Origin: a virus
Length of the DNA stretch: 22,914 nt
IMG/VR virus record: IMGVR_UViG_3300028559_000202
Location: 1-22,914 of that record
Reading direction: 5' to 3' (one strand)
A program made the position numbers and the translations under genes. Positions 3-1,825 of the stretch are shown here, piece by piece. Numbering within the stretch: position 1 is the first letter of the stretch; the number at the start of each line of letters is the position of its first letter. The notes under the pieces are model-generated. The model was not told where the DNA came from, searched no databases, and saw only the letters and a program-made list of their open reading frames with translations.

Positions 3-302
3 AAACAACCATTTGATTTGAACTTGCCGGTCATCAATGGAGAGACTGTTGGCGGTAATTGTGATCTGTGTTTTTTGAAGTCATTGCCGAAGGTTGTGTC
101 ATTGATTAGGGAAAAGCCAGAACTTGCGACCTGGTGGATAAAAATGGAGGCTCTTATACCAACGGTTGCGGACGTTAAAAAGCTTGGAAGTGGCAACAGG
201 TTTAGACTGGATAGGCCGTCCTACCAAGATTTGCTAAACAACAACCATAATCAAAAAGAGTTATTTGACGATGGCGATATAGCTTGCTTTTGTGGTGATT
301 GA
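3..302 (+). CDS. PAPS reductase-like protein, C-terminal part (5' end outside window)
   Basis: The reading frame is open from the window edge, so the true start lies upstream; the TTG at 18 is not convincing as a start. The visible 99 residues resemble the C-terminal end of phage phosphoadenosine-phosphosulfate reductase family proteins (adenine nucleotide alpha-hydrolase fold). The recognisable pieces are FDLNLP, then GNCDLCFLK, then a helix with REKPELATWW, then RFRLDRPSYQDLL and a terminal ACFCGD. The two cysteine pairs (CxxC and CxC) could bind a metal or Fe-S cluster; that is inference. The nucleotide-binding N-terminus is not in the window. Family members reduce or transfer sulfur from activated sulfate, and some relatives act in nucleic-acid sulfur modification (DndC-type); the phage role is unknown. 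The stop overlaps the start region of the next gene. It looks more AT-rich than the next gene. Confidence 0.75.
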   Translation, partial: KQPFDLNLPVINGETVGGNCDLCFLKSLPKVVSLIREKPELATWWIKMEALIPTVADVKKLGSGNRFRLDRPSYQDLLNNNHNQKELFDDGDIACFCGD

Positions 303-303
303 T

Positions 304-1239
304 ATGGGCGAGCCAGCAAAAGTGATCGATTTCAAGCTGCCAAAGCGCCCACCCAAGATTGTGGAGAGGGACGCGCCACCGGATCAGCGCAGCTTGGCGG
401 TGGTGCCACTGCGAGCTATCCGAGACCGCGAGCTCACCGATGGTCAGCTGCGAGCTCTGGCCATTCTGTGCAGCTACTGCAACCGGGCGGGGATAACGTG
501 GGTGAGCCAGGGCAGGCTGGCCAAGGATATGCAGGTGAGCCAGCAGTCGATATCAAAGCACCTGAAGGCTCTGGTGGCCGCTGGATACATCGAGGTGACG
601 GCCAAGGGATTCAGGGGAGAGCGAGCTAACACCACGCGTGTTATTTACGATCCCAATGTTACGTCCCAGGACGCGATAGCTATCACCAGCGGGCAAGAGG
701 ACACCAGGCCACCACACCAGGCCAGGAAGGAGACAGCGCAGGCAATGGAGCCAGAGTTCACAGAGGAGCAGATGGCGGCCAACCGCAAGAGGCTCAAAGA
801 GATGCTGGGGGGACTAGCAACCAGGGACGGATTTCACTACAACAGACCAGAGAGGATAGGAGACATCGTGGCAAGGAAACCAAAGGCGAAACCAGCACCA
901 AAGGACACCACTCATACACAACCTAATGTGGTTGTGAATGAGAAGGGCTCCCATACACAACCACATACACAACCTAATACGGTTGTGGAAACACAGAAGA
1001 ACATAGGTATAGATAGGTTGTTTATGTCTATAGGTTTAGAAATAAATAAAGAATTAAAAAAGACTTTAGAAGATTGTTTAGATTCTAAGATGATCTTTAC
1101 AACCTTCGAGGAGTTGAAGAATCGATACGCAGCCGAGAGCTTGCCAATGCCCAAGAGCCCGGAGACCATCGTTGAGATGATGATCCTCATAGGCGCCGAT
1201 GCCTCTCTGACGCGATCTGAGGCTCCTCCATGCCGCTGA
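304..1239 (+). CDS. Winged-helix DNA-binding protein, putative replication initiator
   Basis: A 311-residue protein from the ATG at 304, which has a weak GGTGA five bases upstream; a GTG at 292 would add four residues. Residues about 30-105 form a winged helix-turn-helix: a helix around LRALAILCSYC, then GRLAKDMQVSQQSISKHLKAL as turn and recognition helix, then LVAAGYIEV leading to the wing. The middle is charged, low-complexity linker with HTQPNVVV and HTQPHTQPNTVV. The C-terminal part is a short helical region. This plan, an N-terminal DNA-binding domain with DNA repeats inside its own gene, resembles phage replication initiators such as lambda O, though I see no detailed similarity to O. 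It could instead be a transcription regulator. Base composition changes sharply to AT-rich between about 1001 and 1100, where the candidate origin lies. Confidence 0.7.
   Translation: MGEPAKVIDFKLPKRPPKIVERDAPPDQRSLAVVPLRAIRDRELTDGQLRALAILCSYCNRAGITWVSQGRLAKDMQVSQQSISKHLKALVAAGYIEVTAKGFRGERANTTRVIYDPNVTSQDAIAITSGQEDTRPPHQARKETAQAMEPEFTEEQMAANRKRLKEMLGGLATRDGFHYNRPERIGDIVARKPKAKPAPKDTTHTQPNVVVNEKGSHTQPHTQPNTVVETQKNIGIDRLFMSIGLEINKELKKTLEDCLDSKMIFTTFEELKNRYAAESLPMPKSPETIVEMMILIGADASLTRSEAPPCR
913..987 (+). repeat. Iterons and inverted repeats inside the initiator gene
   Basis: The 11-mer CATACACAACC occurs at 913-923, 952-962 and 964-974. Two of the copies continue into near-identical inverted repeats with arms CACAACC and GGTTGTG around a six-base spacer (TAATGT or TAATAC), at 917-936 and 968-987. 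Direct repeats plus dyads of this size are typical of binding sites for an initiator or repressor. They encode the HTQPN repeat in the protein, so protein-level repeat expansion is an alternative explanation, but the dyad arm GGTTGTG is not required by that. Confidence 0.85.
913..1104. other. Candidate replication origin (iterons plus AT-rich tract) within the initiator gene
   Basis: Iterons at 913-987 are followed directly by a strongly AT-rich stretch; 1001-1080 has only 18 G or C in 80 bases, against a GC-rich surrounding gene. Further half-sites GGTTGT (1016-1021) and ACAACC (1099-1104) flank this stretch. Iterons beside an AT-rich unwinding region inside the initiator gene is the layout of the lambda origin in gene O. 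The function is inferred from layout only; the sites could serve autoregulation. Confidence 0.55.
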
Positions 1240-1525
1240 AACGGGGTAGGGTAGGCAAGGGTAGCCAGCACACAACGCGATCCCGTCACAGCGCCTCTAA
1301 TCCAATCTGTTCAATTGCCAAACGAACGTATGGCTTTTGTACGCAGCCAGGGGTACGCTGCGTGTCAGGCGATTGGCGGCCAGTAGGGGCGTGGTGGTCA
1401 ACCTTTTGCGGTGGACATGGCCTGGGCTGGCTGTGGGAAAGACACCCCTTCCCTCCCCCCCGTCCACACCGTAGCGGGGGTGTCTCTCCGAAATTTTCCT
1501 CAACTTTTCTTGGAAGGAGTTTTTG
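1240..1525. other. Non-coding interval between initiator and SSB-like gene
   Basis: No frame here reads like protein: the open frame at 1230-1526 is rich in G, H, P, R and W and crosses the hairpin. Near its start is a run of G-tracts (GGGG, GGG, GG, GGG between 1243 and 1261). A GC-rich hairpin lies at 1440-1485. The end carries the Shine-Dalgarno of the next gene. A promoter is likely somewhere here because a gene cluster starts after it, but I found no convincing -35/-10 pair and no copy of the AATAGAAT motif. Confidence 0.6.
1440..1485 (+). other. GC-rich hairpin upstream of the SSB-like gene
   Basis: AGACACCCC (1440-1448) pairs with GGGGTGTCT (1477-1485), a perfect 9-bp stem with a 28-base pyrimidine-rich loop holding seven C in a row. 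It is not followed by an uninterrupted T-tract, so it is not a standard intrinsic terminator. It could act as a weak terminator, an mRNA stabiliser or an RNA regulator of the gene 40 bases downstream. Confidence 0.5.
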
Positions 1526-1825
1526 ATGGCGTATGAGATGAAACCTGGGCAGGGCTCTGCTTTCCCAAACGAGAAGAAGGCCGAAGATTGGCACGCCGAC
1601 TTCCGTGGCAAGGTAATGCTCCCAGATGGCAAGACCCACTGGCTGGACATTACAAACAAAAAGACCAAGGATGGGAAGGCGTATGTCACCGTCAAGATTG
1701 GCAACCAAACCCAGCAACAGGGCGAAGCCTACTCCGCAGCTCACAAACCATTTCCGGCCCAGGACAGTCACAACAAGGCCAAGGCCAATGGGTTCGTGGA
1801 CCTCGATGAAGACATTCCGTTCTGA
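1526..1825 (+). CDS. Small protein with SSB-like acidic tail (possible ssDNA-binding protein)
   Basis: The start at 1526 is set by a strong AAGGAG (1514-1519) six bases upstream; the TTG at 1523 is less likely. The product is 99 residues. Residues about 19-56 (DWHADFRGKVMLPDGKTHWLDITNKK and the following VTVKIG segment) look like a few beta strands. The last residues, DLDEDIPF, closely match the acidic C-terminal tip of bacterial and phage single-stranded DNA-binding proteins (consensus close to DDDIPF), which recruits partner proteins. The body is too short for a complete classical SSB domain, so it may be a minimal OB-fold or another replication accessory protein that uses the same tip. It sits after the initiator-like gene, which fits a replication role. 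Its stop overlaps the next start (ATGA). Confidence 0.65.
   Translation: MAYEMKPGQGSAFPNEKKAEDWHADFRGKVMLPDGKTHWLDITNKKTKDGKAYVTVKIGNQTQQQGEAYSAAHKPFPAQDSHNKAKANGFVDLDEDIPF

Follow-up and report, generated by a model that had tools for sequence, protein, structure and literature searches.

A candidate replication origin inside the initiator gene of a podovirus of about 34 kb

The window analysed here, the whole 22,914-nucleotide stretch of IMG/VR virus record IMGVR_UViG_3300028559_000202, carries near its beginning a gene for a winged-helix protein in which short repeats, dyads and an AT-rich tract are all contained within a single open frame (304-1239), and the locus raises the question of whether a phage origin of replication lies inside the gene of its own initiator. 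The best explanation of the observations as a whole, including the mechanism proposed below, is that positions 913-1080 are the origin of a podovirus of about 34 kb, placed within its own initiator gene; from the sequence evidence, we assign this reading a probability of roughly 0.88. The relevant features are:

304..1239, + strand: initiator gene, open reading frame of 311 aa, with an alternative GTG start at 292
394..642, + strand: winged-helix DNA-binding domain, approximately residues 31-113 (AlphaFold2, pLDDT mostly >90)
541..582, + strand: recognition helix, residues 80-93 (a helix in the model, covarying with the half-sites)
874..999, + strand: disordered linker, residues 191-232 (pLDDT <50), the DNA of which is the iteron block
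913..940, no strand: dyad 1, CATACACAACC-N6-GGTTGTGAATG, two inverted half-sites
952..962, + strand: single half-site CATACACAACC, 12 bp upstream of dyad 2
964..987, no strand: dyad 2, CATACACAACC-N6-GGTTGTG
1001..1080, no strand: AT-rich tract, also coding for the beginning of the C-terminal domain
1009..1218, + strand: helical C-terminal domain, residues 236-305 (AlphaFold2 helices)
1308..1342, no strand: conserved non-coding palindrome E1, 3' of the initiator gene, approximately TGTnCAAnnCCAnACGaaCGTaTGGnnTTTGnACA
1441..1500, no strand: non-coding element E2, a pyrimidine tract and GACACCCC/GGGGTGTC arms followed by AAATTTTCC
1526..1825, + strand: single-strand DNA-binding protein gene, next downstream (phrog_18154, E 3.7e-08)

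Inspection of the repeat region revealed three copies of CATACACAACC matching exactly in the window (913-923, 952-962 and 964-974) and two CACAACC-N6-GGTTGTG dyads (917-936 and 968-987), the first of which is longer than originally noted and reads CTCATnCACAACC-N6-GGTTGTGnATGAG over 911-942. The preliminary description had reported three iterons, two dyads and an AT-rich tract with 18 G/C in the gene of a winged-helix protein, and this anatomy proved exact to the letter and beyond chance expectation. The window contains 12 copies of CACAACC against 3.7 expected (at least 12 were reached in none of 100 dinucleotide shuffles), five of which are packed into 71 bp in the orientations > < > > <, forming the largest two-orientation 7-mer cluster of the window (maximum of 3 in 30 codon-block shuffles). 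The tract at 1001-1080, with 18 G/C in its 80 bases, coincides with the lowest-GC 80-mer of the 22.9 kb (17 G/C, the next lowest elsewhere having 26), and the least stable 60-mer of the window by nearest-neighbour energy also lies there, 4.9 sd from the mean; on these sequence properties it is probably the duplex-unwinding element. GC and TA skew of the complete relative G001 pinpointed no origin: gene orientation dominates the signal, and skew was dropped as an independent origin marker. An Rfam scan of 880-1560 returned chance-level microRNA models only.

Since the linker is disordered and reads HTQPN...HTQPHTQPN, the DNA repeats could in principle just mirror a repeated peptide (HTQP/IDN) of low complexity. 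This seems most improbable: the inverted arms code for an unrelated peptide (VV), and when synonymous codons were redrawn from phage usage with the protein kept constant (n=5000), two dyads with an identical 7-bp arm appeared in 0/5000 genes. The synonymous codons of the linker are, moreover, nearly frozen. In the comparison of the window with relative L006, 43 of 44 synonymous codons are identical over codons 201-250, as against approximately 45-79% synonymous identity per 25-codon block over codons 1-200, a constraint acting at the level of DNA. Finally, the peptides HTQP, HRQP, HSQP and IDN vary among relatives exactly as the helix-matched DNA half-sites require.

The encoded protein matches HTH_36 (PF13730) with an E-value of 1.6e-10 (41 bits versus a curated cut-off of 25), and all 48 aligned family members match this domain as well as PHROG 270 'replication initiation protein' and PHROG 391 'replication initiation O-like'. 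In the AlphaFold2 model, the C-terminal domain comprises helices at residues 236-242, 249-258, 261-277 and 286-305, and it returned no Pfam match. A fold search of the PDB with the N-terminal domain gave 4pt7, 4pql and 5kbj as three of the four best matches, with modest scores (TM ~0.5; E 6e-4 to 1e-3); their titles name an initiator, a DNA-binding protein N-terminal domain and a Rep-DNA complex, and we take them to be RepA_N-type structures. Kinship to solved structures was also sought by sequence, where generic regulator winged helices alone were recovered, and this line was abandoned.

Winged-helix proteins also resemble MarR-type regulators in both sequence and fold, the sites lie upstream of the ssb and terminase genes, and promoters often sit in AT-rich tracts, so that the protein might be a repressor or activator bound within its own gene, with the AT-rich tract as promoter of the genes downstream. 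We regard this as very unlikely. The sites are located ~600-690 nt inside the gene, the extended type never occurring upstream of it; MarR-like regulators lack the linker and the helical C-terminal domain; the PHROG matches are overwhelmingly to replication initiators, and no second initiator gene was found in these phages. The sites may nevertheless have a secondary autoregulatory role alongside that of an origin.

Relatives of the protein were retrieved from IMG/VR at 395, 443 and 484 loci with three profile queries, the overlapping sets amounting to some hundreds of relatives in total, about 400-480, while two scans of GTDB species genomes (84,980 genomes) gave no match and no prophage copy. 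The initial label of a podovirus with a T7/BPP-1-like structural block was loosely right, the nearest named phage by terminase being OM43 phage MEP301 (74% identical; MW452941; PMC8024684), which has a collinear genome; BcepC6B (41%) and others are more distant. The only match among named phages, MEP301 gp55, is homologous over the winged-helix domain (31.6% identity over the N-terminal half, E 4e-18). This 201-aa protein lacks the linker, the iteron block and the C-terminal domain, and no iteron cluster was found in a scan of MEP301, indicating that not every member of the wider group shares the design. Around gp55 (positions 34057-34774 of MEP301, our locus L250), a lone AACACG-N6-CGTGTT dyad of the same 18-bp geometry lies upstream in AT-rich DNA, and is perhaps an origin outside the gene.

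Within the family itself, all site types preserve the order of dyad, half-site, dyad and AT-rich tract; dyads and half-site are spaced by 36-39 and 12 bp, or more widely in certain R and K types. In 89 of 91 relatives, the AT minimum comes immediately after the last dyad: the 60-mer with the lowest GC in the gene starts between -10 and +90 nt from that dyad (median 10). Where each genome was searched, class-B dyads were found twice per genome and exclusively in the initiator gene. The proposal of a candidate origin inside the initiator gene is supported by a half-site block kept in 91/91 CAT-type members and an AT-rich tract placed alike in 89/91.

Comparison of the half-sites with the recognition helix further linked the two. 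The half-sites, which lie within the linker DNA of the gene, have the general form CATn-p1p2-CAAC, and the helix residue corresponding to Q80 of the window protein (541-543) predicts base p2: Q, R and K are paired with A, with G, and with A or T, respectively, in 91/91 unique proteins having CAT-type half-sites. The rule was formulated on the first 53 proteins and then applied to unseen ones; among 33 new proteins from a later scan, nearly all of them Q-type and with 14 of their 16 helix strings not seen before, it was obeyed by 31/31 assessable proteins (30 Q, 1 R). Counted over 33 distinct helix strings, and ignoring relatedness, R occurs with G in 14:0 and non-R with non-G in 19:0. A tree built without the helix requires seven residue changes and seven base changes; only two to three switch pairs fall on well-supported branches, too few for a sign test, and all differing ones are concordant. 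In particular, the window-type helix VSQQ... goes with CACAACC, VxKQQVARAM with GACAACA, SRQA... with GGCAACC, and KQA..SK and KQA..NK mostly with GTCAACC and in some cases with GACAACC. Absence of the dyads from relatives had been named as the finding that would speak against the origin; they are instead kept in 91/91 CAT-type members, changing with the recognition helix. That one residue predicts a letter of the DNA site in ~120 natural variants from these aquatic phages strongly suggests, at the sequence level, that initiator and half-sites work as lock and key.

Additional variation was observed outside this rule. In L074, L075, L085 and L330, ITN replaces IT[KR]/IS[KR] in the helix and the half-site core is GGACAC rather than NNCAAC; the altered core is common to the ITN-helix lineages of L074 and L330, which are distant from each other, and this points to a possible further position of the code that can be read. 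Between their inner half-site cores, window-type dyads have a spacer of 8 bp and those of classes B and C one of 6 bp, which implies that dimer geometry differs between the classes. In L009 (3251-4150), the initiator gene carries a short deletion after GAATTA and its frame stops early (after ...INKEL), reflecting either an assembly chimera or a real truncation.

Natural domain swaps, as judged from sequence comparison, argue most strongly for a reading of the half-sites by the winged helix. The DNA of L330 and L324 is 95-100% identical over residues 121-200, the 240 nt between the winged helix and the half-sites, and mostly >90% identical after residue 240, but identity drops to 53% in the recognition helix and to 33-43% in the iterons; within each of the two phages, helix type and iteron type match each other. 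L156 and L154 have the leader and the C-terminal domain in common and differ over the whole domain-to-iteron stretch, and in L011 the window-type helix and iterons are joined to another C-terminal domain. This co-replacement also bears on the idea that the dyads are a pac or cos recognition site of the nearby terminase, which is prompted by the position of terS and terL 0.8-1.8 kb downstream and by several metagenomic contigs that end inside the region. A site type that tracks the initiator's recognition helix and is swapped together with it is unlike a terminase site; the contig ends are accounted for by an assembler overlap of 82 bp, located in a stretch that co-occurring strains share without differences, and E1 and E2, being nearer to terS, are better candidates, so that a packaging role of the dyads has very little probability.

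Comparison with known systems places the origin reading between two designs. As in lambda O/ori-lambda and its Stx-phage relatives (PMC7466680; NC_001416), the origin would lie midway along the initiator gene, the dyad-like repeats lead directly into an AT-rich tract with the same relative orientation, the protein consists of an N-terminal DNA-binding domain, a linker and a C-terminal domain, and lambda-type recombination genes are located nearby. The 'lambda O layout' originally suggested accordingly describes the design, with iterons and AT-rich tract in the gene and lambda itself as the control, but not the family: the window protein has no Phage_rep_O Pfam match at E <= 1, comparison with the lambda O profile (hhalign) gave a probability of 0.4% with no detectable match, and unlike in lambda, no P-type helicase loader gene was found downstream, where ssb is present instead. 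The arrangement of 2.5 dyads with a directly repeated half-site likewise differs from the four near-identical iterons of lambda.

The second design is that of the RepA_N plasmid initiators. Like pSK41 Rep, the protein falls in the range of ~310-320 aa with a winged-helix N-terminal domain and a helical C-terminal domain, and the putative origin lies within the linker DNA; in pSK41 Rep, the linker is origin-encoded and the C-terminal domain binds DnaG (PMC5703833). The structural model is thus consistent with the RepA_N-like combination of winged-helix domain, origin-encoded linker and helical C-terminal domain, the likeness of the last consisting in helical character rather than in sequences or structures set side by side. 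None of 48 members matched the RepA_N Pfam family at E <= 0.01, and RepA_N initiators belong to Gram-positive plasmids, whereas the locus studied here belongs to a phage, the named relative of which has an OM43 methylotroph as its host. The chimeric Rep of pPR9/pUSA03 has an HTH_36 (PF13730) N-terminal domain described as phage-like, which was exchanged together with the origin segment against a conserved C-terminal domain (PMC5703833). This exchange resembles the L156/L154 and L330/L324 mosaics, a likeness at the level of the published description; pPR9/pUSA03 is a staphylococcal plasmid, and the part of the paper drawn on here describes no iteron code (PMC5703833). The locus is therefore best read as a self-contained initiator-origin cassette of lambda-O/RepA_N-like design that belongs detectably to neither family. 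The earlier term 'undescribed replicon type' can be accepted for this group of phages, although initiators with internal origins, including the HTH_36 one of pPR9, were already known. The design itself is known from lambda O, RepA_N and pPR9; what is new is the family itself, the lack of a loader, the way in which the iterons are arranged and the helix-to-base rule across natural alleles, and no description of this initiator-origin system was found in the open-access literature.

Under the proposed mechanism, dimers of the winged-helix N-terminal domain would occupy both dyads and the additional half-site, and residue 80 of the recognition helix would read base p2 through the major groove. For this first step, the covariation provides strong support. 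The protein-bound array would then strain the adjacent AT-rich tract and lead to its opening, and the helical C-terminal domain, tethered by the iteron-encoded disordered linker, would recruit the host replicative helicase and/or primase, as the parallels with lambda O and pSK41 Rep suggest. The genome would be copied by host polymerase, with the RecT-like, RecE-like exonuclease, RusA-like and SSB genes serving later replication. The sequences themselves establish the anatomy of the locus, the constraint on its DNA, its uniqueness within the genome and the covariation and joint replacement of helix and iterons. That the protein physically binds the sites, opens the duplex, recruits host factors and starts replication here is what we infer, the steps after dimer binding being modelled on lambda O (PMC7466680) and pSK41 Rep (PMC5703833). 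It is somewhat more probable than not, in addition, that the locus works as an exchangeable cassette, in which winged helix and iterons are swapped jointly across conserved DNA, changing the replication type, and the C-terminal domain loads host helicase or primase without a loader. If so, the helix sequence alone would be enough to predict the origin of an uncultured phage and, with it, replicon compatibility, so that origins and possibly compatibility groups could be told directly from sequence. A family of hundreds would gain an initiator, an origin and a testable mechanism, with a loader-free route to the host replisome suggested, and its natural alleles with matched sites form a dataset on DNA reading by winged helices and on how initiator-origin specificity evolves without breakage.

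The gene content of the phages agrees with such dependence on the host. Genes for a RecE-like exonuclease, a serine recombinase, SSB, a RecT-like or ERF annealing protein and a RusA-like protein are present in MEP301 and in two relatives with near-complete genomes of 33,994 and 34,587 bp, and no polymerase, primase, helicase or P-like loader was found in G001, G002 and MEP301, nor a C-terminal domain of known function. The MEP301 paper likewise reports no polymerase and lists recombination genes with no initiator or origin, gp55 being annotated as hypothetical only and standing outside its replication gene list (PMC8024684); the initiator gene described here fills this gap in phages of the MEP301 type, for which no initiator had previously been named.

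Some minor observations concern the surroundings of the gene. Upstream, window positions 3-302 encode the C-terminal end of a PAPS-reductase-like gene, the place of which is taken by other genes in G001 and G002. The complete relative represented by the start of L079 and the end of L080 (contig of 33994 bp) closes upon itself via a repeat of 82 bp located precisely within dyad 2 and the AT-rich tract, and contigs L008, L043 and L044 end at the same place, as would fit DNA common to co-occurring strains; the notion that such ends are physical genome termini was rejected in favour of the assembler overlap. Downstream, E1 was detected in 65 of 95 relatives with a strict pattern and may belong to the origin region. 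E2, with the pattern CACCCyTTsCCCCCyCCCCC ... GCGGGG ... AA[AT]TTTTCCyCAC, is present 3' of the initiator gene in 92 of the 95 and is a candidate for a cos/pac site, a terminator or a second origin element.
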